From Plebeiibacterium marinum (GTDB lineage: Bacteria > Bacteroidota > Bacteroidia > Bacteroidales > Marinilabiliaceae): 64,000 nucleotides of DNA. Below are positions 19,183 through 51,783 of the stretch, in pieces. A model generated the notes under the pieces. It did no database searches. It saw nothing but the letters and a program-made list of their open reading frames with translations, and was not told the origin of the DNA. Made by a program: the position numbers and the translations under genes. The stretch's first letter is position 1, and every line of letters starts with the position of its first letter. The DNA lies in assembly GCF_026013615.1 (NCBI RefSeq), contig NZ_JAPDPI010000014.1, positions 1-64,000 on the forward strand, given 5' to 3'.

Positions 19183-19185
19183 TAA

Positions 19186-19477: not shown

Positions 19478-19485
19478 CTTCTAAA

Positions 19486-19512: not shown

Positions 19513-19557
19513 CTTTTCTGTTGTAAAAAATTTTCTTATTAATTGATAACACCTTGA

Positions 19558-21201: not shown

Positions 21202-21231
21202 TTTCAGTTTCTTTATACTCAATCTTTAAAT

Positions 21232-21586: not shown

Positions 21587-21621
21587 CTAAACCTCAATGA
21601 ACAAAAATTCTATGTCTCTTT

Positions 21622-23646: not shown

Positions 23647-23658
23647 ACCTGTATTCAA

Positions 23659-27198: not shown

Positions 27199-27265
27199 AA
27201 ATTTACGCTGTTAAAATGTTTGTACTATTGGTGCCATGCACCTTTGGTTTATAAACTAAATTTCA

Positions 27266-27293
27266 ACGGTAGGATATGGCGGTATCTTACCGT
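27266..27293 (-). promoter_or_regulatory. Hairpin between fecR and susC
   Basis: ACGGTA-g-GATA (27266-27276) pairs with TATC-t-TACCGT (27283-27293). A run of T follows on the plus strand, i.e. a run of A precedes the stem in the transcript of the operon, so it is not a canonical terminator in the operon direction. It marks the boundary between the regulator pair and the sigma-dependent susC promoter. Confidence 0.45.
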
Positions 27294-27334
27294 TTTTTTT
27301 TCTTACATAGGCAATTATCTTTTATTATGGTTAA

Positions 27335-28342
27335 CTAATTCCTTTTAATATGTATCTCCTGGTCTTTCACTTCAAATTCAATGGGGAGCGTTTCTTTTAA
27401 TATGTCCATTACTTCTTTGATGGTTTCATTCCTGAAAATACCATCATAATGCAAGCCCAGTAATGATTGATCATCGATATAAATATCCACTCCATACTTC
27501 CGTTCCAGCAAAACAATAAGCTCTTGTAACGACATGTCGACAAAAATCAGCTTGTTTTCTTTCCAGGCACTATACCTTTCTGTTTCCACCTTTTTTATCC
27601 TGATACTATTGTCTGCCTTATTAAAAACCAATTGTTCACCAGGCTCTAAAACCTGCGGTTCTTTTAACCTGAATTTTCCACCGGAAGTAATCTTAACTAA
27701 GCCTTCTTCCAGGGTGGTTGACACGAGGTTGTCGTCGGCATAGGCTTTTACATTGAATTCGGTTCCCAGCACATTCACATCATAAAAAGGGGTATGTACC
27801 ACAAATTTCCTTTTTTGATCCTTTTCTACATCAAACCAGGCTTCCCCCTGGAGATACACTTCCCTGATGCCCCGCTGGTTATAACTGTATTTTAAAACTG
27901 ACCCCCCATTTAAATAAACAATCGTACTGTCGGGCAATACCATTTGCGATATGGATCCTTTGGGCGACATGGTAGTATAGTATACCGGATCCTGGTTAAA
28001 ATAATGTATTGATAAAACACCTATAAATACCCCCACAATCAATACGGCTGCAATACGGGAAAAACCGATTATTAATTTTTTTGTTCTTGAAGCTTTTTTA
28101 CTATTTCCCCTCAAATTAATCTGGTGGTGGATCGAGTCCAGTATTTCGTTTAGTTCATGTTTCTTGGCCACACTCCCAAGCGCAACTTTTTCACTATTCC
28201 ATAAGTTAAAAAGCTCATTTCGAATAGTCAGGTTGTTGCCAGGCTCTTCAAATAATCCAATTGCCTGCTCCATGCCTGCTTCATCAGAGGTACCTATGGC
28301 GTAGTCTGTAATTATTTTTGATATATCTTGTTCTTTCTTCAT
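27335..28342 (-). CDS. FecR family anti-sigma factor
   Basis: 335 residues. The cytoplasmic anti-sigma part (1-85) precedes one transmembrane helix (about 90-112; IGFSRIAAVLIVGVFIGVLS). The periplasmic FecR domain follows (about 130-230; LPDSTIVYLNGGSVLKYS, GEAWFDVEKD, VLGTEFNVKAY). A C-terminal DUF4974-type segment (LIFVDMSLQELIVLLERKYG) would contact the STN domain of the SusC. It lies between the sigma gene and susC and should hold the sigma factor inactive until the porin is loaded. Confidence 0.95.
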   Translation of the reverse strand: MKKEQDISKIITDYAIGTSDEAGMEQAIGLFEEPGNNLTIRNELFNLWNSEKVALGSVAKKHELNEILDSIHHQINLRGNSKKASRTKKLIIGFSRIAAVLIVGVFIGVLSIHYFNQDPVYYTTMSPKGSISQMVLPDSTIVYLNGGSVLKYSYNQRGIREVYLQGEAWFDVEKDQKRKFVVHTPFYDVNVLGTEFNVKAYADDNLVSTTLEEGLVKITSGGKFRLKEPQVLEPGEQLVFNKADNSIRIKKVETERYSAWKENKLIFVDMSLQELIVLLERKYGVDIYIDDQSLLGLHYDGIFRNETIKEVMDILKETLPIEFEVKDQEIHIKRN

Positions 28343-35034: not shown

Positions 35035-36654
35035 CTATTTATATAAGACAAATGTTTGAACCGACCTCTTTCCAACTACGATATTATCCACAGGTACAGT
35101 GGATTTTGTCAGATTTTTGTCTTCTGAGGTTACATATACCGTTACCTCATCATCATCCAGATCGTTTTCCTCACAGAAACTCTCAAACGACAGCTTTTTA
35201 TCTTCCATAGAATAATTGACCACGACAAAAACATACTCCCCTTTCTTACTGTCTTCATATGCGGTTACCATCAGGTTATCCATTTGTTTTTCCAAAGGTT
35301 GCTTATCACTAAGCCATGCCTCAATCCTAACCATGCCGGGGCGAACAAAACGAGAGTAATTACCCATTACCCATAATAGCTTCGAATCCCTCACAAATCC
35401 ATCTTCCTGCAAAAGCTGTTCATCTTCTTTACTCTGTATTCCTGACTGTCCCCTGTCGATATACACCAAACCATCTTTATAGTCCACTGGCGACACTGAT
35501 GTCCACCAGCTCCACACTGCAGCATCGGCAATTGCCAAATCGGCATGAATAACCCTGGCAACGTACAAAGCCGTAGCCATTCCCAGATCACGATGATTAC
35601 CACCGCCTATATCTTTATGGTCTTCAAGGATACAATATTCACTCTGCCAAAAATCCAATCCGTTGCCCATTGACTGGATATGCTCTTTTAACCTTTGGCG
35701 TACCTGTATAAGGGTATCATTGTTATTGGTTGTAAAATAGCTATGCCCCATGGCCGATTTTCTAACCTCTGGCAGGTTGCCCAGATACAAAGCGGAAGTG
35801 TCATTAAAAAAAGCTTCCAGCTGGTTATCCCTTTCCGGATACCTTCCTGTTTCGCTTAAAAACTGTAACTGAGCCGCTTCAGGGATCACCAATTCAGCAT
35901 TTAAACCATTTTCCTTAATTTTGGGTGCAAGAATTCTGATCAACTTAGCAATATCCTCATTACGTGCCGGAGATCCTTCTTGAGTAGCCGGAGCTTTCCA
36001 GTCCCACTGAGGTTCGTTAAAAGGGCTCAGGTAATCAAATTCGAGCCCTGTTTCTTTAAAATGGGCAGCTACCTTAATCAGGAAATTGGCATACCCTTCA
36101 TAATACTTATCCTGAAGGTTATATTTGATTCCTCCGGGAGACCATCCCTTGTGGTTATTTGTAAAATATACCGGGGCCGAGTTGTTAAAAGCCAATAGCT
36201 TTTCAACGCCCATCTCTTTGGCAGCTTTTAAAAACCACTGCTGCCCCATTTGCTTATCCCAATTGTAAGTCCCATCAGCATTCATAAAGCATTCTGCACG
36301 CCTCCATGGATTTGGGATGTCACTTTTTTCTCCCTGCTCAGCTGTTCCGCCCCCAATATTAAACCGCCATTGCGACAAGCCTATCCCTTTTGGATTACCC
36401 TGGCTATCGACCTCTTTGCTAAACAACAAGCGGGCAATCTCTTCCCGTTTCTTTTCAGGCCAATTTTCTCCAACAAACTGAAGTGTCCAACAGTCTGAGG
36501 CTCCAAAGCCTTCCATCAACTGGTGCCGCTCTTTTATATTAGCACAGACCTCTACAATTCCCTCCTTACTATCATTGCTCTTTTTGTTATTGCTACAAGA
36601 CAAAAGCAGTGATAGCAATAGGGTTATCATACCTAAAATCGTTGTTTTCTTCAT
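35035..36654 (-). CDS. GH30 family glycosidase, lipoprotein (candidate beta-1,6-galactanase)
   Basis: 539 residues; lipobox LLSC (Cys20). GH30 signatures: MEGFGASDCWTLQF, GIGLSQWRFNIGGG, acid/base Glu214 in SPFNEPQWDW, nucleophile Glu339 in DFWQSEYCIL, and AVWSWWTSVSPVDYKDGLVY. A C-terminal beta-sandwich follows. The FNEPQWDW and SQWRFNIGGG details resemble the GH30 branch that holds endo-beta-1,6-galactanases, an inference supported by GH2 beta-galactosidase in the same operon. A glucosidase or xylanase activity cannot be excluded. Confidence 0.9.
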   Translation of the reverse strand: MKKTTILGMITLLLSLLLSCSNNKKSNDSKEGIVEVCANIKERHQLMEGFGASDCWTLQFVGENWPEKKREEIARLLFSKEVDSQGNPKGIGLSQWRFNIGGGTAEQGEKSDIPNPWRRAECFMNADGTYNWDKQMGQQWFLKAAKEMGVEKLLAFNNSAPVYFTNNHKGWSPGGIKYNLQDKYYEGYANFLIKVAAHFKETGLEFDYLSPFNEPQWDWKAPATQEGSPARNEDIAKLIRILAPKIKENGLNAELVIPEAAQLQFLSETGRYPERDNQLEAFFNDTSALYLGNLPEVRKSAMGHSYFTTNNNDTLIQVRQRLKEHIQSMGNGLDFWQSEYCILEDHKDIGGGNHRDLGMATALYVARVIHADLAIADAAVWSWWTSVSPVDYKDGLVYIDRGQSGIQSKEDEQLLQEDGFVRDSKLLWVMGNYSRFVRPGMVRIEAWLSDKQPLEKQMDNLMVTAYEDSKKGEYVFVVVNYSMEDKKLSFESFCEENDLDDDEVTVYVTSEDKNLTKSTVPVDNIVVGKRSVQTFVLYK

Positions 36655-36969: not shown

Positions 36970-38580
36970 TTAATAATTTGGATTTTGATACAGGAATCCA
37001 TTACTTCTGTCAATTTCAGCCTGTGGGAAAGGCCATAACTCATGGCGTCCTTCTACAAACTGAATACCCTTATCCTGCGATTCACTTGGGTGAATTGTTT
37101 CATAAGGATCTGTACTTTCGTTTAGGTTATACTGAACAAAGTACCCATTTGGCCCCATGGCTTCAGCAATCATTGCTTTGCCCGATACAGGGTCAATCTC
37201 TCTTCGTAAATCGAATAACCTTAAACCTTCCGAAGCCATTTCCAGTCTTCTTTCTTTCCAAATGGCGTATAATAAGTCGTTACCACTTAAATCATTTTTA
37301 TCACCTAATTCTACACGAGCCCTTAAAAATGCAATATCGCTTTTTGCCTGACCTTCGTTGTTGTTGAAGTAAGCAGCTTCAGCTCTTGTTAAATACATTT
37401 CACCAAGGCGTAAAAGAATTTTTGGAAGTGGAATATGGCGGTCTTTTGTTGTCAATTCCCTTCTCATGGCAATAGGCACATAGTATTTTCTCCATACCCT
37501 ACCCGACTTGTTGATGTCTGGATTAAACTGATAATTTGGATTCTCTTCCTCATCACCATACACAGCATCACCAATAGTAATAATGGTACTTTTTCTTCTG
37601 ATTTCATCACCTTCTGAAAGGTAAGCTTGTTCAAGATGAGAAGAAGGAACACACCATCCCCATCCATCCATAATCTTATCCTCTTCACCTTCAGGCCAGG
37701 TTTCGCCACGGGCACCCATTACAACAGAAAAACGGTTACCCACATAGTACTGCTGATCCTGGTTTACCTGGATTTCGAAAATAGATTCCACTCCATTGTG
37801 GTTGTACACGCTCCAGATGTTAACAAATTCCGGCTCAAGCGAATAAGGTCCTTCTTCAATAACCTCATTAGCATACGCATAGGCATTTGTATAATCTTTC
37901 ATATAAAGATAAGTCCTGGCCAACAAGGCTTTACATGCCCATTTGGTAACACGTCCTAAATCTTCTGAATCATAACTTCCTGGCAATACAGCCTCCGCTT
38001 CTTGTAAATCCTTAACAATTTGAGCATATACTTCAGCCTTTGCTGTACGTTGTTTGTTTAAATCAGATGTACCCTGAGGTTCCAATACCAACACCACATC
38101 ACCAAAGTTCTGCACCAGTTCCCAATAGTTAAAAGCCCTGAAAAATTTAGCTTCCGAAACCAAACGATTTTTTATATCCTCAGGAATATTTGCGTCTGCA
38201 ATTCGATGAATAGCTGTATTACACGAGCCAATGTTAAGATACTTCATGTAATAATAGTCTGTTAACGAGCTCGGAATATTTGTTGGGTCAACAAAATAAT
38301 GAGCTAAGGCATAGTGCTTAGATGGATCCTGCTGAAGGTTACCCATCCAGGCGTCATCAGTACTCATCATATTGGATACATGCAAAATTTGCTGCCACCA
38401 ATCATCCCAGCTTGCAAATCCTTTATATATGGAATTCACAAAACTCACACACTCTTCTTCCGACTGGAAATAATTATCTAAATTTTGCTGTCCCCGACTG
38501 TCTACTTCAATAAAATCTTCACATGATGCCATCAGTAACAACACCACTCCAAACATTATTGCTATTATATTTTTCTTCAT
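36970..38580 (-). CDS. SusD/RagB family surface lipoprotein (galactan locus)
   Basis: About 536 residues from the ATG at 38580 (signal MKKNIIAIMFGVVLLLMASC); the frame continues upstream over the susC stop but that would bury the signal. SusD features: KFFRAFNYWELVQNFGDV, a TPR segment (CKALLARTYLYMKDYTNAYA) and WKERRLEMASEGLRLFDLRR. It starts 35 bases after its SusC partner. Role: surface capture of oligosaccharide for the SusC pore. Confidence 0.94.
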   Translation of the reverse strand: MKKNIIAIMFGVVLLLMASCEDFIEVDSRGQQNLDNYFQSEEECVSFVNSIYKGFASWDDWWQQILHVSNMMSTDDAWMGNLQQDPSKHYALAHYFVDPTNIPSSLTDYYYMKYLNIGSCNTAIHRIADANIPEDIKNRLVSEAKFFRAFNYWELVQNFGDVVLVLEPQGTSDLNKQRTAKAEVYAQIVKDLQEAEAVLPGSYDSEDLGRVTKWACKALLARTYLYMKDYTNAYAYANEVIEEGPYSLEPEFVNIWSVYNHNGVESIFEIQVNQDQQYYVGNRFSVVMGARGETWPEGEEDKIMDGWGWCVPSSHLEQAYLSEGDEIRRKSTIITIGDAVYGDEEENPNYQFNPDINKSGRVWRKYYVPIAMRRELTTKDRHIPLPKILLRLGEMYLTRAEAAYFNNNEGQAKSDIAFLRARVELGDKNDLSGNDLLYAIWKERRLEMASEGLRLFDLRREIDPVSGKAMIAEAMGPNGYFVQYNLNESTDPYETIHPSESQDKGIQFVEGRHELWPFPQAEIDRSNGFLYQNPNY

Positions 38581-38614
38581 AATTATTATTTTTTCGAATG
38601 AATGATGCGGTTTA

Positions 38615-41600
38615 TTAAAAGTTAATATTAACACCAACTAAATAGGTAGGCAACACCGGATAGGTCCATCCACCAAATCCGAAGCTTAACACATCACCTG
38701 AAACTTCTGGCTCTACACCTGAATAGTTAGTCCATGTTGCAATATTCTGTCCAGACACATACACTCTACATTTGCTCATACCCATACGCTTAGAAATGTT
38801 TTGAGGTAAGGTATACCCCAACTGGATATTCTTTAACCTTAGGTATGAACCATCTTCAACATAAAAATCACTGAATTTGTCGTAGTTTTGGTTGTTATCC
38901 ACATGAGAAACACGAGGAATGCTATTGCTGGTTCCTTCTCCATGCCAGGCATCGCTTAACAAACCACTAATCACATTACTTTCAGAAGCTGTTGTACTAT
39001 ATAAATCCTTCTTAATATCGTTAACCAACTCGTTTCCTACACTTGCATACAGGTTAGCAAGCAAATCAAATCCTTTATAGCCCACGCTTATATTTACACC
39101 ACCTGTAAAATCAGGCCAAGGACTTCCAAGTTTTACCCTGTCATCTCCTGTTAGCTCTCCATCTCCATTAGTATCAACAAATCTGATATCACCAGGCTGT
39201 GCATAAGGCTGCAACAAATCTCCGGTATCATTAGAGTGCGAGTTCACATCAAATTGGTTTTGGAACAAACCATCTGTTTTATACCCAAAGAAGTATCCAG
39301 GCTCATCGCCCACAACAGTTTTAGTACGACTTCCATTACCATAAATAACAGGAGTAGTATATGGTAGCTTAGTAGCCTCAACCGAACTTGTCATTAAAGT
39401 AAAACCAACATCATATTTAAAATCTCCTGATTTTCCGTGATAATTCAATGCAATTTCAATACCTGAAGATTTCATTGAACCAATGTTGGACCAGATATAG
39501 CTCCAATCAGGAAACCCACTGTAATATTGATAAGGCATTCTAAATATCATATCCTTTGTATTTTTTCGATAGTACTCAAACGAACCCGTAATGGCATTAT
39601 CAAAAAGCGTAAAGTCAGTACCAATATTTATATCTTCAACTGTCTCCCACTTAATGTCTTCATTCTTCATTTGCGCTGGTTCAGTAGCATTCACTACAGT
39701 TCCTTGTCCGTCTCCAAATACATAATAATTTTTTGCCAACTTTGATAGATAAGCGTCAGCTGGAAGGTTTTGATTACCTAATCTACCCCAACCTGCTCTT
39801 AATTTAATATCATCAACAAACGAAAGATTACTTAAGAAATTTTCATCTGAAATACGCCATGCCACAGATGCGGAAGGGAACCCTGCCCATTTATTGCTAG
39901 CTAAGAATTTTGAAGATCCGTCAACTCTATAGGTTGCTGTTAAATAATAACGGCTTTTATAGTTATATGAAAAACGCCCCAGAAAAGATTCGATTGACGA
40001 CTCCCATTGATTACCGGTTATAAAATCGGTTCCTGTAGCTGCTACCAATTCCCTAAGCAATTCTGAGTTATTTGGTGCTCCTTCTTTGTTACCTTCGATA
40101 TTTCGTCCGTAAGACTTTTCAAATGTAGCACCTCCCATTAATGAAGCATTGTGTCCACCTTTTTGAAGAGTATAAGTAGCTGTGTTTGTCCAGTTCCAAT
40201 ACCTGTTAAATTCATGATCCCGGAACACATAGTTGATATCCTGGTGTTCGTGAGCCCCATCAATAGTAAAATCAGGTATAAAATCATCCGTATGGTTAAA
40301 CTTGAAATTGCCACTTAACTGAGTTTTAATTTCAAGGTTTTTAATAGGCTTATATGTAAGATACGAGCTTGATGTGATTGCATAATACCCTCCATCACCA
40401 AAGTTTCTGGCGTCACGTGCAATCGGGTTCCACACATATGTATAGTATGATCTTTGGAAAATACTGTATTGGTTAAGCCCAACTTGTTCTTCCTCTGGTC
40501 GGTAAATTGGAGAAATAGGATCCTGCAACAAGTAATCCTGGTACCACGATGGCGTATTATCCCAAAGCTCTCTCCTTGGGTTCATGCTTACTCCAAATGA
40601 AACTTTGTCTGAAAATTTCCAGTCAAGCGTTACCCTACCGGTAATCCTTTTCCAGTTGCCCGAATTATAAAATGATTCCTGATCAAAATAACTAAGGCTC
40701 ACGGCATACTTATACTTCTCGTCACCTCCGGTAACTTGTAAAGATGCATTACGTTGTGGTGCATATTTATTTACACCTTCTCCCCACCAGTCTGTTCCTG
40801 AACCCAATGAAGCAGGATCGTCGAAGCGGGTACCTAGTCCTGCATTAACAAGCGATTGGTTCATAGTTGTGGCATACTCTTCAGCATTTGCCATGTCAAA
40901 AGGCTTGTTTAAAACCTGGATACCATAAGAAAAATCAGCAGAGAAAACAGGTTTTCCATCTGAACCCTTTTTGGTAGTAACCAAAATAACCCCGTTGGAA
41001 GCACGGCTACCATAAATTGCAGCTGCAGAAGCATCTTTTAGTACATCGACACTCTCAATTTCGCTGGAATTCAAAAAATTAAGGTTGTTACCCATTGGCA
41101 CCCCGTCAACCACATATAGCGGATCTGTTGAAAGGCTGATAGAAGTAAAGCCCCTGATTAATACTTTAGGTGCAGCACCTGGTGATCCACCACCTGCAAC
41201 CACCTGCAATCCCGGTGCTTTACCCTGAAGGGCCTGTACAGGATTACCTACACTCATAGCCTTCACTTCATCTCCCTGCACAGATGCAATGGAACTGGTC
41301 AGGTCCTTTCTTTTTGCCTTACCATAACCAATGGCAACCACTTCATTTAAAGAGATACTGGCTTCTTTTAAAATAATATCCAGATTGGTATTATTTCCGG
41401 TAATGACAATTTCTTTGGTATCAAAACCAATAAAACTGGCCACAACAACATCGTTTACGTTTGCATTGAGCATATAATGCCCGTCTATGTCGGTAATGGT
41501 ACCTGTTGTAGTACCTTTAACAAGTATCGATACACCAGGCAACGATTCGCCGCTCTCCGTACTGACAACACCGCTAATTTTAACCTCTTGTCCAAAAATT

Positions 41601-41650
41601 GTCATCCCAATGAAAAACAAAAAGGAAAACAACCATATTATTTTTTTCAT
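38615..41650 (-). CDS. SusC/RagA family TonB-linked outer membrane porin (galactan locus)
   Basis: 1011 residues: signal peptide (ending TIFGQ), CarboxypepD_reg domain (about 23-97; GVVSTESGESLPGVSILVKG), SusC signature SLNEVVAIGYGKAKRKDLTS, plug (YVVDGVPMGNN, VDVLKDASAAAIYGSRASNG) and barrel ending in YLVGVNINF. No STN domain, which agrees with control by the HTCS at 43522 and not by a FecR/sigma pair. It lies between the surface binding lipoprotein and susD. Confidence 0.95.
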   Translation of the reverse strand: MKKIIWLFSFLFFIGMTIFGQEVKISGVVSTESGESLPGVSILVKGTTTGTITDIDGHYMLNANVNDVVVASFIGFDTKEIVITGNNTNLDIILKEASISLNEVVAIGYGKAKRKDLTSSIASVQGDEVKAMSVGNPVQALQGKAPGLQVVAGGGSPGAAPKVLIRGFTSISLSTDPLYVVDGVPMGNNLNFLNSSEIESVDVLKDASAAAIYGSRASNGVILVTTKKGSDGKPVFSADFSYGIQVLNKPFDMANAEEYATTMNQSLVNAGLGTRFDDPASLGSGTDWWGEGVNKYAPQRNASLQVTGGDEKYKYAVSLSYFDQESFYNSGNWKRITGRVTLDWKFSDKVSFGVSMNPRRELWDNTPSWYQDYLLQDPISPIYRPEEEQVGLNQYSIFQRSYYTYVWNPIARDARNFGDGGYYAITSSSYLTYKPIKNLEIKTQLSGNFKFNHTDDFIPDFTIDGAHEHQDINYVFRDHEFNRYWNWTNTATYTLQKGGHNASLMGGATFEKSYGRNIEGNKEGAPNNSELLRELVAATGTDFITGNQWESSIESFLGRFSYNYKSRYYLTATYRVDGSSKFLASNKWAGFPSASVAWRISDENFLSNLSFVDDIKLRAGWGRLGNQNLPADAYLSKLAKNYYVFGDGQGTVVNATEPAQMKNEDIKWETVEDINIGTDFTLFDNAITGSFEYYRKNTKDMIFRMPYQYYSGFPDWSYIWSNIGSMKSSGIEIALNYHGKSGDFKYDVGFTLMTSSVEATKLPYTTPVIYGNGSRTKTVVGDEPGYFFGYKTDGLFQNQFDVNSHSNDTGDLLQPYAQPGDIRFVDTNGDGELTGDDRVKLGSPWPDFTGGVNISVGYKGFDLLANLYASVGNELVNDIKKDLYSTTASESNVISGLLSDAWHGEGTSNSIPRVSHVDNNQNYDKFSDFYVEDGSYLRLKNIQLGYTLPQNISKRMGMSKCRVYVSGQNIATWTNYSGVEPEVSGDVLSFGFGGWTYPVLPTYLVGVNINF

Positions 41651-41770
41651 ATGTTTAATATTTATTCATGAACTATATCCATTGCCTGATCAATTCCGGT
41701 AAAGGACTAAGTATAAAACCCATACCCCTTTACTGAAATTGATTTCAAGCAATAAAACTCTTTATAGTAT

Positions 41771-43213
41771 CTAATCTACTTTTATAACCTTAGCCCTGTT
41801 CAAGTGACTATCAAAAATTACTCTGTAGGTAGTTCTTTCAGGAACTTCCATAGCCACATTATCACCTCCTTTTAAAACAGTTGCCTCAGGATCTACCTTT
41901 CTGTCAAACCTCCAGAAAGGCTCTGGCCACCATCCCCATGGATGCTCCGGTTGGAAAATAAACTCTACAGTTCCTTCCATATCGATTGTTTTATAGAAAC
42001 GGTAGTTGTTTTCAGGATCCCTGTCAAAAGGAATTGAAGCCCATGTTGCCCAGCTCTGATCCGGATAATCCGGGAAGCCTTTTCCTACTAACCCAAGTTT
42101 TCCAACATACTCCGACTCAATATATGAATCATCGTTTGGATACTCCATTTTTGGCTCATAATACCAGGTATCAGGAGTATACTGTTCAACACTATAGGTT
42201 AATGCCTCTAAATCAACAGTAATTTTAAAGTATCCTTTAGCATCAAGAATAATAGGCAATGCATTTTCAGGATCGTTTATCAATTTAGTCTCATCATTAG
42301 GGTCAATACCATAACAATGCGGCGCAAAACTGGTAGTTTGAGGGATAAACTTAATTTCAGTCCCTGCAGCTTCGGAATAATACTTGGCCTCAAAATTATA
42401 AGGAGCTGTTTTAGTGATTAACATTGGTACACCAAACAAGTCTGATACCAGTTCAGCATCTGTTTTTACATCGGCAAGATAAAGTTTATCAAAGTCGAAC
42501 GATGCCTTTACAATTCTATCAGCACTTACTACATTCCCTGCACTATCAGCTACAGTGAAAGAAAAATTGTATTCTCCCAACTGCGCAGGTAAAGTAGCTG
42601 TATATTGATATTCGTAATCCAGTTTCCCTGTGCCTTCAAAAGAAATACTGTCATAGTAATCTAAAGATGCTTCTTTAGCTACAAAATAACCAAGTTGACG
42701 AGCATCCGACAACAACACATGAATATCTACAGGAAGTTCTCCCTCAGGTGCCAGGGTTAAACCATTAACCGGTGACTTAACATCCAATACCGGGTTATCA
42801 AAATCACCATCCATAAAAACACTCAGCGTTTTTGTAACCTCAAGTCCACCAACATTAGTAATTGTTACATTAATATTGAACTCCTTATCTTGAGCGTCTT
42901 CAGGAATTTCAAAGGAATAATTTAAAGAATAACCTGTAATTAAATCCTCTCCTTTATATACCTGAATCGTTTTATCAAGATACCATTCATCAATATTGAT
43001 TCTGATTTTATCAATTCCCAGTTCGTCGGTCACTTCACCTCCTATAACAAAAGTCCTTCCCGGCTCGCTATGTACTTCCTCTGAAGTTAAATTGAACTGT
43101 GGGCTTGAATCTGCCACCCATTGTTTTTCATTGTCACCATCGCATGATGATAATAAGAAAAAAGCAGCAATAAAAAACACTGCATATTTTCCTAACTTTA
43201 GTTTTCTTTTCAT
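41771..43213 (-). CDS. Surface glycan-binding lipoprotein (SusE/F-position)
   Basis: A 480-residue lipoprotein (LLSSC, Cys24) made of beta-sandwich repeats: a first immunoglobulin-like domain (about 38-135), a second (about 138-235; DNPVLDVKSPVNGLTLAPEG), then SusE/F-like C-terminal modules rich in Trp and Tyr (QPEHPWGWWPEPFWRFD), likely sugar-binding. Not matched to a named family with confidence. It is the first gene of the galactan operon, upstream of susC instead of after susD, and diverges from the HTCS gene. Confidence 0.75.
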   Translation of the reverse strand: MKRKLKLGKYAVFFIAAFFLLSSCDGDNEKQWVADSSPQFNLTSEEVHSEPGRTFVIGGEVTDELGIDKIRINIDEWYLDKTIQVYKGEDLITGYSLNYSFEIPEDAQDKEFNINVTITNVGGLEVTKTLSVFMDGDFDNPVLDVKSPVNGLTLAPEGELPVDIHVLLSDARQLGYFVAKEASLDYYDSISFEGTGKLDYEYQYTATLPAQLGEYNFSFTVADSAGNVVSADRIVKASFDFDKLYLADVKTDAELVSDLFGVPMLITKTAPYNFEAKYYSEAAGTEIKFIPQTTSFAPHCYGIDPNDETKLINDPENALPIILDAKGYFKITVDLEALTYSVEQYTPDTWYYEPKMEYPNDDSYIESEYVGKLGLVGKGFPDYPDQSWATWASIPFDRDPENNYRFYKTIDMEGTVEFIFQPEHPWGWWPEPFWRFDRKVDPEATVLKGGDNVAMEVPERTTYRVIFDSHLNRAKVIKVD

Positions 43214-43521: not shown

Positions 43522-46500
43522 ATGTTGAACGGACACATCATTATAAACAGTCTTAAATTGCGCATTTACTTAATTTTTGCCACTATTATTTATATACTTG
43601 GCAACTCAAGTATCGCAATTTCACAAAACCCTTATTCCACCTCCACCATCTCTGGTAACGAAGGATTACCTACCGAAGAAATCAGAAAAGTTTTTAAGGG
43701 TAGCAAGGGTTTTATGTGGTTTGCCACCCCGGAAGGACTGGTGCGTTATGATGGCTATGAATTAAAACTATATTCAACATCTACTTATCTGGCTAAAGGA
43801 CTCATAACAAATAGTTTTTCGGACATTGCCCAAAGTACTGACGGAAATTTATGGTTTGCAACAGACCATGGAATTGCAAAACTTGACATTGACAACGATC
43901 GCTTCTCGTTTTTTAACACCTTTGAAAAAAGCTGGGATTCCAAATCATACAATAAAATAAATTCAGTAACTATTGACGAATTCGATAACCTTTGGGTTGG
44001 AACTGCCGGAGATGGCGTATTAAAACTAAATACCACAGATAACAGCTACGAGGAGTTTAACAAGGAGGATACCAGAATGGGCATGACCTCTGAATGGATC
44101 ACCAAAATATATTGCGACAGCCAAAATAATATATGGATCAGTACCTGGGAAGGCAACCTTATTATTATAAACCCTAAAAAAAACATCTTTAAAACTTACG
44201 AAGGCATTGACAATCAGGTGATCTTTTCTGAAAACACACCCTACGCCATATGCGAAACAAATGATAATAAATATTGGCTGGGACTATGGGAAAAGGGCCT
44301 TATTTGCATTTCCCTTGACCAAGATTACAATATTAAAACGGAAGGACGGCACAACAACATCAGCAGCGACAATATTACTTATGACATTGATATAGACCCC
44401 AATGGTACACTTTGGCTGGGAACTACCAATGGCGTAATTCAAATTAAAAAACCACTAAATGAGATACCTGAGTTTTCTTCCATAACAGCAACCTCTTCCG
44501 AATCGTCAAATACCCCTCAATACGAAGCTTTTTCAATTTTGTGCGATGACAATGATTTTGTGTGGGCAGGCACCCTAACTGGCGTTTATCTCTCAAATCC
44601 ATACTCTCAACACTTTACAACATACAAAATCCCTATTAACTCTAAAAAACTATTAAGTCAGGCAGCTACAGCATTTACAAAAGACCCCAATAATAATCTT
44701 TTAATCGGTCTGCGCGGCTATGGTTTTGGCAAATACTCATTTTCAGACAAACGCTTTGTCCCTTATACATCCATGCCCGAATATCAAAAACTAACAGCGG
44801 ATCTAAACACCATCAATTGCTTTTTATGGGACACGGATGGTTTTTTATGGCTTGGGACAAGATACCTGGGCCTTATTAAATACGACCCGCTAACAGGAAA
44901 CTCCATCGAAATAAGCCAGGACAACACTGCCTATAATTTTGAAGCAGAATCAGTAGTTGACCTCATGCAAGATCACCTTGGAAACATATGGGCAGGCACA
45001 GAGAAAGGGCTTTATAAAATCATCAAACACTACCCTGCCGGACTTGAAAACTTTAGCTTAATAAGCTACAAGCACAAAAATGATGACCCGAACTCGATCA
45101 GCAGTAACCTCATATCAAAAATAATAGAAGACAACAACCATCAACTTTGGGTAAGCACCTTTGACAAAGGCATTAACCTGTTAAAAACAAGTCTGGAAGC
45201 CCATTTCCCTGCTCAATTCGAACACGCAGGATCAGACCATCCCCGCTTTTTAAACGTACCGCAACAGATAAGCACAATGCACAAAGGGCACGATGGAACC
45301 ATCTGGCTTGGTACCACCGGGGGCAAACTCTTAAAAAAAACACCTGATAACATCAACTTCAGCCAGGTAAAGGAAGTAGATAACATTATTGGAGAAGCCA
45401 TTTTCAGCATTATTGAAGACGACAACAGTATTTTATGGATAGCATCAAGCCTGGGAATAATCAGGCTTAGCCTTAAAGAAAACAAAGTCAGTTATTCTGT
45501 ATTTCCAAAATCAGAACAGCTATTGAATAACAATTTTATCAGGAATGCCTGTTACAAAGGCCAGGATGGAAAGATATACTTAGGTGGGAACAGAGGTTTT
45601 AATGCTTTCTATCCCGATTCTGTAAAATCAAACCCGTCCATACCTCCTGTTGCTATTACAAACATAAAACATGGCAATCAAATCATAAAAACACCTTCAA
45701 ACAATGCCCCTTTAATTATAAATCACAACTCCAATACCCTTTCATTTACCTTTTCTGCACTCTCCTATGCCTCCCCTGAAAACAACAATTATATCATTAA
45801 GCTCGAAGGTGTAGACAACGATTGGAGATACATCAGATCCTCCATCAGGGAAATTACCTATGCCAATTTAAAACCGGGTGAATACACGCTACGATACAAC
45901 GCTTCAAATAACAATGGATTATGGAGGCCCCAACCACGCAGTCTCAGGGTAATAGTAAAACCAGCCTATTACGAAACAGGATGGGCCATTAGTCTTTATT
46001 TTGGTATCATTCTCTCAACCCTTTTATATATTATTATTAAAGAGAGGAAAACTCACAAAATAATGAGAGAACTGGAAATAGAGCACATTGAACACGAGAA
46101 ATCAGAAAACCTTCTAGACTTCAAAAAACAGCTTTTTGCTAACATTTCGAATGAGTTCATCACTCCCTTAAATGTACTTAATGTATATATGGAGAACTGG
46201 AAAAACCTCAGGTCCTCACCACCCCAACAAGATCTTCTGCTTGCGCAGCGGAACATCAACAGGCTCATTAGGTTTAACAAACAGTTTTTATATTATAGCA
46301 CTGCCGAAAGTGATCAAATTCCATTAAATATTACAGTTGAAAATTTAAACAATTTTACAAGCGATGTGTGCGATAACTTTGGTCTGTTAATGAGTAAAAA
46401 GGAAATACTGTTTACACGAGACATCCAGATAAACGAAGCCTGCTTTGACACCGACAAACTCGATATTATTTTATACAACTTGCTAACATTAGCCTTAAAA

Positions 46501-47676
46501 GACACCTCATACAAAGGATTTATCAGCATCCAGGCGCATTCTGTAAACAAAAACGCCACCGATTATGCACAGTTTATCATTACCCATAACCACTTGCAAT
46601 TAAACGATGTCCCGGATGTTCTTCTCACCGATGAAAGTGAGTATATGACAGGTAACATTGGCATTGGACTGGCCATAACAAAACAGATGATTGAATTGCA
46701 TCGGGGTGAAATAAAATTCTCCACAAACAACAACGAAAGAGTGATCACATTTAACATACCCATATCACAAAATGCTTATCAGGATATAAATACAGAAAAC
46801 GGGAAAATAACCAAAGAAGATATTGGTTTCCTTAAAAACAAATTAGAAATTGAGGAGGAGGTATTAGTAAACCTAAGGAACCTGGTAAAAGAATCAGACG
46901 AAAAAAGCATTATCACCATCATTGATCCCGATCAGGATTTACGCAGGATATTAAAAAAACAACTATCACCGTTTTTTAATGTAAAGGAATTTAGTAATGC
47001 ACAAACAGGCCTAAAAAACATCTTAAAACAAACACCAGACCTGATAATTTCCGACACCCTTTCCTCTTATCCCCTTACAGGCAAAGATTTATGTAAAGAG
47101 GTGAAGAAATCCGGAAGTAACAAGGTTATTCCATTCATTATGCTATCCGGCCAGCCTTCTGAAAATGAAAGAGCTATTTGTTACAAGGCCGGTGCTGATA
47201 GTTATATTGCCAAACCCCTTGACATCAATACGCTACTTGTTAGGGTACAGAACCTTATCAATCAAAAAAACAGTTTCAAAGAGGACAAACCCGTTAGAAA
47301 CGATGCTTTTTCAAAAACGATTACAAAAGGAAAAGACAAGTTTTTAAATGAGATTAAAACCAGTGTAGAAAAGAATATTTCGAACCCAAACTTTGGTGTT
47401 GGCGATTTAGCAAGCGAACTGAACATCAGCAATTCAATGCTATATAGAAAACTAACAAACAGCATCAACTTGTCGCCAAACATGTTTATTAAAAAGATGA
47501 GACTCATAAAAGCTGTTGAGCTACTTGAAGAAACAACTTTAAATGTATCCGAAATATCAGGAGAGTGCGGCTTTAGCGACATCAGCTACTTTGGCCAGAC
47601 CTTTAAAAAAGAATATGGTGTTTCACCCTCTACATACAGAAGAAACTTCCACAAGTTCAGCAACATAAATAAATAA
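43522..47676 (+). CDS. Hybrid two-component regulator (HTCS) with degenerate kinase domain
   Basis: 1384 residues in the HTCS order: signal or anchor helix, two seven-bladed Reg_prop propellers (about 45-750; repeated NLWFAT, NLWVGT, TLWLGT), a Y_Y_Y domain (about 755-815), a membrane helix (about 821-842), HisKA, HATPase_c, receiver (about 1130-1245) and AraC-type HTH (about 1275-1384; GFSDISYFGQTFKKEYGVSP). The H-box reads ANISNEFITPL: the phosphoacceptor His is Asn877 (codon AAT at 46150). The N-box reads NLLTLALK instead of NLLSNAFK and the G1 box is lost, while G2 (GIGLAITK) remains. The receiver keeps Asp1178 and Lys1231 but its acidic pair is DPD. It should sense oligosaccharide in the periplasm and control the adjacent galactan locus. 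Confidence 0.93.
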   Translation: MLNGHIIINSLKLRIYLIFATIIYILGNSSIAISQNPYSTSTISGNEGLPTEEIRKVFKGSKGFMWFATPEGLVRYDGYELKLYSTSTYLAKGLITNSFSDIAQSTDGNLWFATDHGIAKLDIDNDRFSFFNTFEKSWDSKSYNKINSVTIDEFDNLWVGTAGDGVLKLNTTDNSYEEFNKEDTRMGMTSEWITKIYCDSQNNIWISTWEGNLIIINPKKNIFKTYEGIDNQVIFSENTPYAICETNDNKYWLGLWEKGLICISLDQDYNIKTEGRHNNISSDNITYDIDIDPNGTLWLGTTNGVIQIKKPLNEIPEFSSITATSSESSNTPQYEAFSILCDDNDFVWAGTLTGVYLSNPYSQHFTTYKIPINSKKLLSQAATAFTKDPNNNLLIGLRGYGFGKYSFSDKRFVPYTSMPEYQKLTADLNTINCFLWDTDGFLWLGTRYLGLIKYDPLTGNSIEISQDNTAYNFEAESVVDLMQDHLGNIWAGTEKGLYKIIKHYPAGLENFSLISYKHKNDDPNSISSNLISKIIEDNNHQLWVSTFDKGINLLKTSLEAHFPAQFEHAGSDHPRFLNVPQQISTMHKGHDGTIWLGTTGGKLLKKTPDNINFSQVKEVDNIIGEAIFSIIEDDNSILWIASSLGIIRLSLKENKVSYSVFPKSEQLLNNNFIRNACYKGQDGKIYLGGNRGFNAFYPDSVKSNPSIPPVAITNIKHGNQIIKTPSNNAPLIINHNSNTLSFTFSALSYASPENNNYIIKLEGVDNDWRYIRSSIREITYANLKPGEYTLRYNASNNNGLWRPQPRSLRVIVKPAYYETGWAISLYFGIILSTLLYIIIKERKTHKIMRELEIEHIEHEKSENLLDFKKQLFANISNEFITPLNVLNVYMENWKNLRSSPPQQDLLLAQRNINRLIRFNKQFLYYSTAESDQIPLNITVENLNNFTSDVCDNFGLLMSKKEILFTRDIQINEACFDTDKLDIILYNLLTLALKDTSYKGFISIQAHSVNKNATDYAQFIITHNHLQLNDVPDVLLTDESEYMTGNIGIGLAITKQMIELHRGEIKFSTNNNERVITFNIPISQNAYQDINTENGKITKEDIGFLKNKLEIEEEVLVNLRNLVKESDEKSIITIIDPDQDLRRILKKQLSPFFNVKEFSNAQTGLKNILKQTPDLIISDTLSSYPLTGKDLCKEVKKSGSNKVIPFIMLSGQPSENERAICYKAGADSYIAKPLDINTLLVRVQNLINQKNSFKEDKPVRNDAFSKTITKGKDKFLNEIKTSVEKNISNPNFGVGDLASELNISNSMLYRKLTNSINLSPNMFIKKMRLIKAVELLEETTLNVSEISGECGFSDISYFGQTFKKEYGVSPSTYRRNFHKFSNINK

Positions 47677-47752: not shown

Positions 47753-48925
47753 TTAATTCGCTTTCGTAATTTTAAGTGGGTTGCTGATTTGACGGGCAAA
47801 CTTACTTAAATACGCTTCCCATTCTTTTTGCCCTTTAAACTGCTTACTCCCACTCCAGGCAAAACCTGTATAATATTCAACTTTGCCATCTATCACCTTT
47901 AAGTGCATCAACAAATGGCTTTTATCCTTTTCGTTGGAAACAACCTTTGAATACCCGGCATAATATTTAGGATCCACCACAATAGCATTACCGATCTCTT
48001 CGCCAAAATGCGGCGACCAATAATCTCCCCAACACGCAACAGAATCCACTCCTGTAACACCTTGGTTTTCATGCAAAGTTACCCCGGTAGTTAATGTGTC
48101 GGCACCTTTAACCTCAATAACAAACTTTGTAAAATTATTTCCCAGGTTTATGATTCCTGTTTTTGATTGGCTTACCTGCTTTTTTTCAGAACCAAACGGC
48201 GCATAAGCCAGCTCAAATGCTGTTTCAACCGGACCATTTGATAGTACATTATATCCAGTGTAGTTAAGCGAAGTAACCAATTCTCCGTCAATCATAACAC
48301 CTGTACCACCACAACCAAGACTAGGTCCAACATGGTAATTGTCCAACCCTTCGCCATGATCAATATGGTAATAACCAGGGTTTTCATCATTCCCTTTATA
48401 CCATTTATTTATAATTGAGTAATCCACTTTTTTAAGCCAACAATCTACACCACCAGACAGCGTACCACCCTCCTGGCCTTCTTCAACCATACGTTGAGCA
48501 GTTGGTCCATACACACGAAAAGCTACCTTGTCATTTTCCCAGGTAAAATCATCTGTACGTTCCGGTACAAAACGAGCGTAAGTTTTTACCTCAGAAGGTT
48601 TAACAGAAGAAACTCCCTCTTTAATAACAAAATCACGGCTTTCATTTGCACTCAACTTAACCTGAAAAAGAATTGCTTCAAAAACATTGTCTTTGTCCTT
48701 ATCTACCAATTGAGATTGGATTTCAACATTAGATGCCTTGTCGATAACCACAACACCCGTTGCCACAGACAAACTTTCGCACAGTTCCACACGAACAGTT
48801 TCTACAGTTCTATCCACATCTAGAGAGTTTGATACAGATACAACCATGCCATTGTCATTGCTGGTGCAACTACTTAAAACAAGTAGAAGCACAGCAAATA
48901 GAATATAATAAAACTGATTCTTCAT
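47753..48925 (-). CDS. DUF4861 family lipoprotein
   Basis: About 390 residues from the ATG at 48925, which gives the lipoprotein signal ending VLSSC and starts 4 bases after the kduD stop; the frame also opens at 48946, overlapping kduD. Beta-rich with DDFTWENDKVAFRVYGPTAQ, GVDCWLKKVDYSIINKWY, YYHIDHGEGLDNYHVGPSLG and a GTTL-type core, which I recognise as the DUF4861 family. Members are found beside kdu genes and polysaccharide-lyase loci, so a role in processing unsaturated uronate oligosaccharides is likely but unproven. It is the last gene of the kdu cluster. Confidence 0.8.
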   Translation of the reverse strand: MKNQFYYILFAVLLLVLSSCTSNDNGMVVSVSNSLDVDRTVETVRVELCESLSVATGVVVIDKASNVEIQSQLVDKDKDNVFEAILFQVKLSANESRDFVIKEGVSSVKPSEVKTYARFVPERTDDFTWENDKVAFRVYGPTAQRMVEEGQEGGTLSGGVDCWLKKVDYSIINKWYKGNDENPGYYHIDHGEGLDNYHVGPSLGCGGTGVMIDGELVTSLNYTGYNVLSNGPVETAFELAYAPFGSEKKQVSQSKTGIINLGNNFTKFVIEVKGADTLTTGVTLHENQGVTGVDSVACWGDYWSPHFGEEIGNAIVVDPKYYAGYSKVVSNEKDKSHLLMHLKVIDGKVEYYTGFAWSGSKQFKGQKEWEAYLSKFARQISNPLKITKAN

Positions 48926-48929
48926 AAGA

Positions 48930-49727
48930 TTAAATCTCATTTTCACCTTTTACATATCCAAAGTTGGCAAGAATACCACCATCAACATATAAAATATGGC
49001 CATTAACAAAATCGGCAGCTTTTGATGCCAGGAATAAGGCAGCATTACCTACATCCTCAGGATCTCCCCATCTTCCGGCAGGTGTACGAGTCATAACCAA
49101 ATCATTAAAAGGATGGCCATTTTCACGAATAGGAGCCGTTTGAGACGTAGCAATATAACCAGGGCCAATACCATTAATCTGTACATTGTATTTTGCCCAT
49201 TCACAGGTCATGTTTTCGGTAAGCAATTTTAATCCACCTTTAGCCGCAGCATATGCCGAAACATTCTGACGTCCATAAACACTCATCATAGAACACATGT
49301 TGATGATTTTTCCCTGGCGGCGCTCGATCATTCCCGGAGCAATCCTTTTTGCCACAATCAATGGGGCAACCAAATCAACATCCAATACCATTTCAAAATC
49401 TTTAATTGGCATATCTAAAATTGGGACACGCTTGATAATACCAGCGTTATTCACCAAAATATCAATAGGACCAACTTCTTTTTCGATAATGCTAACACCT
49501 TTATCAACATCCTCTTCCGAAGTAACGTTAAAATTCACTGTAAATACATCAATACCATCTTTAGCATATTCAGCCTTACATTCTTCTAACTTTTCGTCGT
49601 TTATATCGTTAACACATAATTTTGCACCAGCTTTTGCTAATATTTTACCACATGCCATTCCAATACCATGGGTACCACCTGTAACAAGGGCTACTTTTCC
49701 TGACAAATCAAATAATTGGTTAATCAT
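48930..49727 (-). CDS. kduD: 2-dehydro-3-deoxy-D-gluconate 5-dehydrogenase (KduD)
   Basis: A 265-residue short-chain dehydrogenase: cofactor loop TGGTHGIG (16-23), NNAG (93-96), catalytic Ser146 in CSMMS and Tyr159-x-x-x-Lys163. It interconverts 2,5-diketo-3-deoxygluconate and 2-keto-3-deoxygluconate using NAD(P)H, in the cytosol. KduI upstream supports the call over gluconate 5-dehydrogenase. It has its own palindrome (TTTGCACA-tt-TGTGCAAA at 49768-49785) in the 144-base gap before it, a candidate LacI operator. Confidence 0.9.
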   Translation of the reverse strand: MINQLFDLSGKVALVTGGTHGIGMACGKILAKAGAKLCVNDINDEKLEECKAEYAKDGIDVFTVNFNVTSEEDVDKGVSIIEKEVGPIDILVNNAGIIKRVPILDMPIKDFEMVLDVDLVAPLIVAKRIAPGMIERRQGKIINMCSMMSVYGRQNVSAYAAAKGGLKLLTENMTCEWAKYNVQINGIGPGYIATSQTAPIRENGHPFNDLVMTRTPAGRWGDPEDVGNAALFLASKAADFVNGHILYVDGGILANFGYVKGENEI

Positions 49728-49767
49728 ATCTTTAAGATTTATATATGTTTAAATTCTAAAACAATCG

Positions 49768-49785
49768 TTTGCACATTTGTGCAAA
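49768..49785 (-). promoter_or_regulatory. Candidate LacI operator upstream of kduD
   Basis: Perfect palindrome TTTGCACA-TT-TGTGCAAA, 41 bases before the kduD start. Next to it is CAATCGTTTG, the same word as in the palindrome before the lacI gene at 51801-51846. Spacing of the half sites differs by two bases between the two places. Confidence 0.55.
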
Positions 49786-49871
49786 AAATTTTAATTCATT
49801 AAAGTATGAAAGGTGTTTGGCCACTAAAAGCACCAAATCAACCTTTCACTAAAAATAATCGCAAATTAATT

Positions 49872-50708
49872 TTATTTCAATTCATTTGGCTGGCGTACAT
49901 CCATATCTGTATAATCCAGGTTTTCACCTGCCATACCCCAAATAAAAATATAATTTGAAGTCCCTGCTGCACTATGAATACTCCATGATGGAGATAAAAC
50001 TGCCTCTTCATTTTTCATCCAGATATGGCGAGTTTCTTCAGGCTGTCCCATAAAGTGACAAACTGCTTGATTTTCTGGCACTTCAAAATAAAAATACGCT
50101 TCCATCCTGCGGTTATGCGTATGTGCTGGCATAGTATTCCAAACACTTCCAGGTTTCAACTCAGTCATTCCCATTTGCAACTGGCAGGTTTCGATAACTT
50201 CCTTAATCAACAATTGGTTAATCTGGCGCTCATTAGAAGTTTCCAACGAACCTAACTGTAACACATTTGCATCGGCCAAAGTTACATGACGGCTAGGCAA
50301 AGACTTATGTGCCGGTGCCGAGTTAATATAAAGATGAGCTGGAGATGAAGCATCAACAGATTCAAAAACAACATCTTTTATACCTTGTCCCAGGTAAAGG
50401 GCTTCTTTATATTTCAAGGTATAAACCGTTCCGTCGGCTGTAATTTTAGCGTCTCCTCCAACATTGATTATACCCATTTCGCGACGGGCTAAAAAGAAAT
50501 CAGCCTTTAATTCATCATAAGTTTCCAATTTAATTGGCTTATCTGTAGGCACGGCCCCTCCTACAATATATCGGTCGTAAAAAGAATAAACCAGGTTGAT
50601 TTCACCTTCAACCATTACCTTTTCAACCAAAAATTCTTTTCTGATACGTGATGTATCATAGCTTTTCACATCTTCCGGATGTACTGCATAACGAACTTCC
50701 AAACTCAT
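49872..50708 (-). CDS. kduI: 4-deoxy-L-threo-5-hexosulose-uronate ketol-isomerase (KduI)
   Basis: 278 residues, the full length of the family. The zinc ligands fall at His196, His198, Glu203 and His245 (MPAHTHNRRMEAYFYF and SWSIHSAAG), the numbering known for the E. coli enzyme. It isomerises the open-chain 4-deoxy-5-keto-uronate formed from unsaturated uronates into 2,5-diketo-3-deoxygluconate, feeding KduD. It lies between lacI and kduD on the same strand. A 20-base tandem repeat (two copies of TTAACTACCTAAT) precedes the start. Confidence 0.95.
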   Translation of the reverse strand: MSLEVRYAVHPEDVKSYDTSRIRKEFLVEKVMVEGEINLVYSFYDRYIVGGAVPTDKPIKLETYDELKADFFLARREMGIINVGGDAKITADGTVYTLKYKEALYLGQGIKDVVFESVDASSPAHLYINSAPAHKSLPSRHVTLADANVLQLGSLETSNERQINQLLIKEVIETCQLQMGMTELKPGSVWNTMPAHTHNRRMEAYFYFEVPENQAVCHFMGQPEETRHIWMKNEEAVLSPSWSIHSAAGTSNYIFIWGMAGENLDYTDMDVRQPNELK

Positions 50709-50778
50709 AACTACCTAATTATTTAATTAACTACCTAATAATATATTTAATCGAAATATTACTTTACAAACACTAACT

Positions 50779-51783
50779 CTACAAGACTTTACCTGAAGAA
50801 TCTCTATCAATATACTTAACAGGGACAACTATTTCTATATTATGGCCAGAGCCATTGATTGCATCAATCATTTGCCTTGCCACCATTCGCCCCATTTCAC
50901 TACCCTGTTGCTCCACAGACGAAAGGGTTGGATAAATCATCTCAGCAAAAGGTTCATTTCCAAATCCTGCCACCCCAAATTCTTTTGATATACTTATCCC
51001 CAGTTCCTTTAATCCTTCGTAAACGCCAAATGCAGAATAATCACCAGCACAAAAAACAGCGTCGATCCCTTCCTTGGCTACTTCTTTTACTTTTAAATAG
51101 CCTGCTTCACGGGTAATAACATCTTCCATTATCAATCCTTCATCCACTTTCCCAAAATAATCCTTCACTGCATCTTCATATCCTCTCCTGCGCTCACAAT
51201 AAGCTTTTAGCAACCTGCTGCCCCCAAAGTGTGCCACCCTTCGATACCCTGATTCCAATAACTTTTTAGTAGCCAGATATGCTCCGGTATAATTATCGTT
51301 GACAACCTTTGCTCCAGTCAGCTCTTTGCTAACCCTATCAAACTGAACTAATGGAACTTTTGAATCTACTACATACTGAAAGTGTCCAAAATCATCGGTT
51401 TCACTTGAAATAGAAGTGATAATTCCTGCAACACGGTTTTGCATCAGTGAGTTTACTGCTTTAACTTCAGACCTCAACTTTTCGTGACTTTGCATAATAA
51501 GCAAACTATAACCTGCAGGATTCAATATTTCTTCAACTCCACTAATCACATTGCTAAAAAAATGGCGGTTAATCCTTGGCACTATCATCCCAACCAAATC
51601 CGACCTGCCTTTTCTTAAAGAAGCAGCCATTAAATTAGGTTGATACCCCATCTCTTTGGCAACTTTCTTTACCATCTCCCTGGTCTTTAGGCTAACCCTC
51701 TTATTATCAGCCAAAGCCCGTGAAATTGTTGAAGGGGTAACTCCCAACTTCTTTGCAATATCATTAATGGTAACCTTCTTCAT
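50779..51783 (-). CDS. LacI family transcriptional repressor
   Basis: 334 residues: N-terminal helix-turn-helix and hinge (TINDIAKKLGVTPSTISRAL ... NLMAASLRKGRSDLVG), then a periplasmic-binding-protein-like sensor (VGMIVPRINRHFFSNVISGV, AVFCAGDYSAFGVYEGLKEL, GVAGFGNEPFAEMIYPTLSS). Position at the head of kduI-kduD-DUF4861 suggests it controls uronate catabolism, with a keto-deoxy-uronate as likely inducer. A 46-bp palindrome overlapping its own -7 box points to autoregulation. Confidence 0.93.
   Translation of the reverse strand: MKKVTINDIAKKLGVTPSTISRALADNKRVSLKTREMVKKVAKEMGYQPNLMAASLRKGRSDLVGMIVPRINRHFFSNVISGVEEILNPAGYSLLIMQSHEKLRSEVKAVNSLMQNRVAGIITSISSETDDFGHFQYVVDSKVPLVQFDRVSKELTGAKVVNDNYTGAYLATKKLLESGYRRVAHFGGSRLLKAYCERRRGYEDAVKDYFGKVDEGLIMEDVITREAGYLKVKEVAKEGIDAVFCAGDYSAFGVYEGLKELGISISKEFGVAGFGNEPFAEMIYPTLSSVEQQGSEMGRMVARQMIDAINGSGHNIEIVVPVKYIDRDSSGKVL

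Follow-up and report, generated by a model that had tools for sequence, protein, structure and literature searches.

A small lineage of hybrid two-component regulators with a phosphorelay predicted to be broken at both ends

Organization of the locus

The window, a stretch of 64,000 nucleotides from Plebeiibacterium marinum, carries a gene for a hybrid two-component system (HTCS) regulator that diverges from the SusE-like gene of an adjacent PUL (Table 1). Pfam places Reg_prop propellers, a Y_Y_Y domain, HisKA (under the cutoff), HATPase_c, Response_reg and an AraC-type HTH in the 1384-residue regulator. Propellers, Y_Y_Y, HisKA/HATPase, receiver and AraC-type DNA-binding domain (DBD) lie on one polypeptide, which is the architecture of an HTCS, and the best sequence match in the PDB (12aw, a chain named hybrid two-component system protein) extends over the receiver and the DBD.

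Table 1. Features of the regulator and of the neighbouring genes, in window coordinates
Feature	Position	Strand	Basis or remark
HTCS regulator gene	43522..47676	+	1384 aa, single open frame
Periplasmic sensor, Reg_prop propellers and Y_Y_Y, residues 40-815	43639..45966	+	Pfam Reg_prop 133.1 bits, Y_Y_Y 53.2 bits
Membrane helix and linker, residues 816-866	45967..46119	+	Sequence inspection, bounds set by analyst
DHp (HisKA) helices, residues 867-935	46120..46326	+	Pfam and identity to L032
Asn877 codon AAT replacing phosphoacceptor His	46150..46152	+	Sequence and alignment
Degenerate ATP-binding CA/HATPase domain, residues 936-1085	46327..46776	+	HATPase_c 30.4 bits
Leu990 replacing N-box Asn (NLLTLALK)	46489..46491	+	Alignment of 114 rows
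G1 box His1022, Asn1023, His1024 replacing Asp-x-Gly	46585..46593	+	Alignment
Pseudo-receiver domain, residues 1129-1248	46906..47265	+	Response_reg 52.1 bits
Pro1136 replacing second acidic (DD2) residue	46927..46929	+	Alignment of 114 rows
Asp1178, phosphoacceptor Asp, retained in window and G047, Asn in G020	47053..47055	+	Alignment
Alpha3-beta4 loop KVIP replacing S/CHIP	47122..47133	+	Alignment; motif from PMC11253607
Lys1231 (retained) and Leu1233 at K+2	47212..47220	+	Alignment; K+2 is Phe in six sisters L033-L038
Lys1271 at presumed conserved DBD Asp of S/CHIP-DK	47332..47334	+	Placed by 39-residue D1344-K1383 spacing in BT4124
AraC-type DNA-binding domain	47338..47655	+	HTH_18 71.5 bits
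SusE-like gene, divergent from HTCS	41771..43213	-	Named by position; Pfam gives only DUF4625
SusC-like transporter	38615..41650	-	Annotation of neighbourhood
SusD-like protein	36970..38637	-	Annotation of neighbourhood
GH30 enzyme	35035..36654	-	Pfam PF14587 471 bits

The GH30 enzyme has 3clw as its best solved-structure match, and a search for a solved relative of the GH5 gene at 1e-5 found none. Adjoining the PUL at 47753-51783 are DUF4861, short-chain dehydrogenase, KduI-like and LacI genes, the last a LacI-type regulator gene at 50779-51783; this stretch may point to uronate handling. A separate stretch at 10849-28339 contains GH95, an alpha-L-fucosidase, a SusD-family protein and a FecR-type gene.

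Loss of the phosphoacceptor and of the ATP-binding residues

The H-box of the regulator reads FANISNEFITPL. At the position where an HTCS carries its phosphoacceptor His, the window protein has Asn877, as the preliminary description of this DNA had read from codon AAT, and the surrounding letters were confirmed in the open reading frame (LFANISNEFITPLNVL). Asn stands at the same position in relatives from two other genomes, one of the same genus (G047, about 70% identical) and one of another genus (G020, 46%), and these three proteins are referred to here as the Asn clade. A sequencing error at 46150 was considered and is ruled out by the presence of Asn in G047 and G020. That a conserved His might lie elsewhere in the dimerisation helix had been raised as an objection; the DHp helices of the window protein (residues 867-935) contain no His at all, hence no compensating one, and the His residues found in its clade relatives (887 and 895 in L032, the G020 copy, and 897 in the first G047 piece) are at unshared positions. 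The HisKA score is 19.3 bits for the window protein against a Pfam cutoff of 26.9, with some His-bearing sisters likewise under the cutoff; since L032 scores 26.5 and five sisters 21.3-30.0, the score does not separate clade from sisters.

Residue frequencies were taken from an alignment of the cytoplasmic part that comprised the window protein and 113 other open frames of 400 aa or more, retrieved at E up to 1e-10, from which frames sharing identical last 400 residues had been removed; its rows include fragments, and those with odd C-terminal ends come from contigs titled as other phyla. The H position is His in 110 of the 114 rows, Asn in three and without coverage in one (the second frame of G047), counts that are not population frequencies because the sample was picked by likeness to the window protein and some rows have unusual C-terminal ends. 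All 26 rows that are paralogs from the same genome carry His.

The ATP-binding side of the kinase is damaged as well, as had been noted earlier for the N-box and G1 box. The N-box position is Asn in 110 of 114 rows and Leu, Leu and Phe in the clade, with one row lacking coverage, and the N-box Asn and the G1 Asp and Gly are gone from all three clade proteins. HATPase_c scores are correspondingly 30.4 bits for the window protein and 26.4 for the G020 copy versus 78.3-94.5 in five sisters.

An AlphaFold model of the cytoplasmic part (mean pLDDT 79.8, pTM 0.46, low confidence at the ATP lid) shows the helices and strands typical of DHp-CA, receiver and HTH. For L052, an intact protein modelled as the single control, mean pLDDT was 78.3 and pTM 0.50, its lid region being low too, and the model was rejected as a discriminator of activity, the window protein and the control being alike. 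Foldseek matches of the model include GacS, ShkA, DivL (4q20) and RetS, which we take to be a pseudokinase; these matches are no evidence of inactivity because pseudokinases and active kinases were both matched. With the fold as predicted, and with His, N-box Asn and G1 lost, the window protein is a predicted pseudo-histidine kinase, and autophosphorylation is presumably absent from the HTCS proteins of this clade.

Distribution and evolution of the clade

In a whole-protein search of 71 family genomes with an E cutoff of 1e-160, 12 genomes had a match, the window's own among them. His is present in the other close relatives, which are 34-41% identical: L033-L040 (from G003, G036, G053, G038, G040, G021, G039 and G022) and L042, a second HTCS copy in G020; the more distant L041, L044 and L045 also carry it. 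Because Asn occurs in two other genomes and His in the remaining relatives, Asn877 is inherited rather than a read error, and the suggestion that it might be fixed in a clade is borne out, Asn being present in all three members and His in the sisters. No further Asn copy was found among the 71 family genomes at E up to 1e-160, or, with a cutoff of 1e-180, among 393 order and 395 phylum genomes sampled evenly out of larger groups; three further matches from the order (L046-L048) all have His. The best 80 of 364 relatives in a wider search were all more distant (22-30% identical). In viral contigs 25 stretches matched a pattern and none encoded a relative, and a search of plasmids found no close DNA match.

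The three Asn proteins group together with support of 100/99 on a sensor-only tree (residues 40-815), 100/100 on residues 1-900 and 100/100 on residues from 936 on, the G047 copy being represented by its first piece in the sensor trees and by its second in the cytoplasmic tree. A single loss of His is the simplest account because the residue is present in both outgroup copies, L042 and L044.

Relative rates were compared for the three clade members, three sisters and two outgroups; in these comparisons, which are non-independent and have uncorrected p values, the clade was faster at p<0.05 in 15 of 18 for CA, 13 of 18 for the receiver (REC), 6 of 12 for the sensor, 4 of 12 for the membrane helix and linker, 1 of 18 for the DBD and 0 of 17 for DHp. 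With L042 as outgroup, the counts for the window protein against L034 are 34:9 in CA (p=1.4e-4), 28:9 in REC (p=1.8e-3), 9:5 in DHp, 13:15 in the DBD and 99:75 in the sensor (p=0.07); with L044 the excess in CA and REC is weaker, at 26:14 (p=0.058) and 28:12 (p=0.011), and the sensor count is 111:69 (p=0.0017). The excess is smaller against L038, which is itself divergent. Identity between the window protein and the G020 copy is highest in DHp (65%), followed by the DBD (58%), REC (57%), sensor (45%) and CA (36%). Between the window protein and G047, dN is 0.14 in REC and 0.13 in the DBD at a dS of 1.9 and 2.5, near saturation, and dN/dS is only indicative because dS is saturated or uncomputable in many comparisons. 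The sensor and DBD profiles still match: Reg_prop scores are 133.1 and 147.1 bits in the clade versus 150-158 in sisters, with Y_Y_Y matching too, and HTH_18 scores are 71.5 bits for the window protein and 67.2 for G020 versus 69.4-76.9 in five sisters. The window protein breaks 30 of 78 conserved columns versus at most 14 (median 4) in 57 distant rows; much of this excess predates the loss of the kinase because the six His-bearing sisters already break 15-21. Taken together, rates and conservation fit a protein in which sensor, dimer and DNA binding are presumably maintained and catalysis is not.

The G047 copy, as assembled, is split between two open frames that overlap; they join at ten consecutive C on the coding strand, directly after the altered H-box (L130:10883-10892, also seen in L031 and L043). 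In 1.59 Mb of loci, L113 has the single other run of at least nine C or G. This split may be an assembly error, decay or a slippage switch. It would speak for a decaying pseudogene, a reading that is extremely unlikely given that the frame is open over 1384 codons in the window and about 1396 in G020, that dN is low, that DHp and the DBD show next to none of the rate excess, and that identical degenerate sites are shared at 46% identity.

All three Asn copies adjoin related SusE/SusC/SusD genes in divergent orientation. More generally, each of the 11 fetched regions has the HTCS gene in divergent orientation to the gene that opens a related PUL. A SusE-like gene and SusC are present in 10 of them, L140 stopping within that opening gene; SusD is seen in 6, and the remaining regions are truncated at a region or contig end. 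The first gene beside the HTCS is GH30 at nine of nine His-bearing regions and SusE-like at all three Asn loci, the window included. Identity to the window's own proteins is 61-69% for SusC and falls from 71% to 34% for the HTCS. The SusD and SusE-like proteins of the window (36970-43213) are up to 76% and 74% identical to those of several sisters versus 63-67% and 58-61% to those of the clade; going by these comparisons, the regulator may not share its evolutionary history with the transport genes. A search for an operator upstream of the three copies found no more than a short AT-rich block common to their intergenic regions. In a region from G022 (L139, 5369-12877) both the HTCS relative, which is read in two frames that overlap, and the SusE-like gene are split; a second, more distant HTCS follows.

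It is also conceivable, although very unlikely, that the His-less protein acts through its DHp helices, either as one subunit of a heterodimer or by damping an intact HTCS paralog. Conservation of DHp would fit such a role, as would G020, where the His-less copy coexists with the intact relative L042 beside a similar PUL. The window's own genome, however, has no close intact paralog (the best by E-value is 29% identical), each of the three His-less copies has SusC/SusD neighbours of its own, and the DBD is retained.

Receiver domain and REC-DBD latch

The receiver had been described as intact, which is correct for Asp1178 and Lys1231 but not for the second acidic residue. The DD2 position is Asp in 108 of 114 rows, Pro in three (all members of the Asn clade and no others), Gln in one (L038) and without coverage in two, and Pro1136 leaves the window protein without the complete active site of an HTCS receiver (DD, D, T/S, K). 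D1178, S1209 and K1231 are retained in the window protein and in G047. The single Asn at the phosphoacceptor Asp position (Asp in 111 of 114 rows, two without coverage) and the single Ile at the Lys position (Lys in 110, three without coverage) both belong to L032 of G020. Other changes are shared by all three clade members: Ser at D+4, which is Pro in 98 of 114 rows; Ser at the T position, where 106 rows have Thr and Ser is accepted; and Gly at T+1, which is Ala in 104. At K+2 the clade has Leu, Ile and Ile versus Phe in all six sisters L033-L038, in a census where 17 of 114 rows are non-Phe, the clade's three and 14 outside it. Response_reg scores are 52.1 bits for the window protein and 49.2 for G020 versus 76.6-90.5 in five sisters.

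PMC12632262 defines a pseudo-receiver as a receiver in which any of five conserved residues of the active site is missing, and the window receiver is one by that definition because its DD2 residue is Pro1136. That paper also describes, for pseudo-receivers, a reduction of Pro at D+4 and, at K+2, a change of Phe towards Ala, Ile, Leu or Val, residues that push CheY towards active conformations (PMC12632262). Among the His-bearing sisters, L038 (G021) has Gln at DD2 and an SDIP latch loop, a case of receiver erosion with H-box and N-box intact.

Phosphorylation of the receiver from elsewhere, with a partner HTCS or a small phosphodonor acting on D1178, could make use of the D1178, S1209 and K1231 retained in the window protein and G047, and the 26 His-bearing paralog rows of the same genome offer candidate partners. 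It is nevertheless quite unlikely: DD2 is Pro and D+4 is Ser in all three proteins, the receiver was faster in 13 of the 18 comparisons, and G020 has lost both Asp and Lys while the rest of its protein is retained. Pro at DD2 throughout the clade and the loss of Asp and Lys in G020 argue against a partner kinase as well as outside phosphorylation, and for direct coupling; in the window protein, where D1178 and K1231 are still present, the two phosphorylation options are weakened by these alignments.

The inhibitory contact between REC and DBD in HTCS proteins is marked by S/CHIP in REC and by D and K in the DBD, and BT4124 with its S/CH pair replaced binds DNA independently of phosphorylation, according to PMC11253607. 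With D and K placed by the BT4124 spacing, the clade reads KVIP-KK (window), SLTP-KK and EYLP-HK; S/CHIP-DK, a Bacteroides-derived motif, is thus absent from the window protein. A looser motif, S/C/T-H-I/L-P-DK, fits 59 of 114 rows. Among the six sisters with intact kinases, five have an eroded latch (SHIN-QK twice, SHIS-QK, SHLN-HK and SDIP-DK) and L034 has THIP-DK, with Thr for Ser/Cys. Because the latch is eroded in these five His-bearing sisters too, its loss marks more than kinase loss alone, and latch erosion may have preceded the loss of the kinase.

A protein without this latch and without a phosphorelay might be a signal-blind regulator, a DNA-binding dimer that is always active as activator or repressor and is controlled through its amount or through other regulators. 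The active-like residues at K+2 would agree with this, as would the LacI-type regulator gene nearby and BT2391 (FHIP-QK), which is named a repressor in PMC11253607. We consider it unlikely, though with some chance of being right, in view of the retained Reg_prop and Y_Y_Y sensor and of DHp, the best conserved domain between the window protein and G020, both of which would be superfluous in a signal-blind protein.

Proposed mechanism

The alignments show that the clade has lost His, the N-box Asn, G1 and DD2, with Asp and Lys gone as well in G020, and that it has retained DHp, the DBD and synteny, so that in this one small HTCS lineage the phosphorelay is, by prediction, broken at both ends. 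The earlier proposal that the protein works without autophosphorylation is supported by the clade-wide loss of His, N-box and G1 residues. Among the routes that it had listed, conformational coupling is favoured, and a partner kinase or external phosphorylation of the receiver is disfavoured by the damage to the receiver.

Direct conformational coupling is probably the mechanism, and the protein presumably responds to a signal and has the SusC/SusD genes as targets. The propeller sensor would bind a glycan signal in the periplasm, and the signal would pass through the membrane helix and the DHp dimer, the latter being retained as a mechanical coupling. The change in DHp would then reach the pseudo-receiver and the AraC domain and alter the placement or release of the two DNA-binding domains, with CA serving as a nucleotide-poor or nucleotide-free scaffold. 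The regulator would thereby control the adjacent SusC/SusD genes like a membrane-anchored one-component regulator. That this double-pseudo HTCS acts in such a phosphorylation-free manner is, in our judgement, moderately probable. A bolder version, in which a hybrid phosphorelay has turned into a purely mechanical transmembrane regulator through DHp alone and the run of ten C in G047 is an on/off slippage switch, is tentative and somewhat doubtful.

Comparison with known systems

Canonical Bacteroides HTCS proteins such as BT4124 and BT4663 have a propeller sensor. The window protein shares with them a kinase, receiver and AraC-type DBD in one chain, as these proteins are presented in PMC11253607. 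It adjoins SusC/SusD genes, and it differs from the Bacteroides proteins in having lost His, the N-box Asn, the G1 residues, DD2 and the residues of the REC-DBD latch. Nearer to it is BT4236 of B. thetaiotaomicron, an HTCS with Gln848 at the phosphoacceptor position and a non-consensus latch (CSIP-EK), for which a phosphorylation-independent mechanism has been suggested (PMC11253607). The residue is Gln in BT4236 and Asn in the clade of the window protein, and BT4236 is a single protein. It is the nearest printed precedent and the sole His-less HTCS that we found in the literature.

A literature search that left most subscription papers outside its scope found no report of an HTCS clade with kinase and receiver both lost. 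Pseudo-kinases and pseudo-receivers had each been described before, as had one HTCS without His. A clade that retains its sensor, dimer helices and DBD without the two ends of the phosphorelay would be a natural test of whether a conformational signal alone can drive transcription, and sister copies whose chemistry is intact and which also adjoin related PUL genes would be matched controls.

DivL (4q20), a structural match of the window model, is like the window protein a histidine-kinase fold without His. To our knowledge, DivL is not fused to a receiver and a DNA-binding domain. DivL of Caulobacter has Tyr550 in place of His, autokinase activity was not found, binding of an ATP analog was weak, and the protein binds DivK~P and acts towards CckA (PMC4211667). 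His is missing from 0.9% of HisKA domains (722 of 76,471) according to PMC12632262. The changes at K+2 and D+4 in the window receiver go in the direction described there for pseudo-receivers and atypical response regulators; the window receiver differs in being fused to its own pseudokinase and membrane sensor, and it bears on a question named in PMC12632262, how pseudo-receivers are activated or inactivated.
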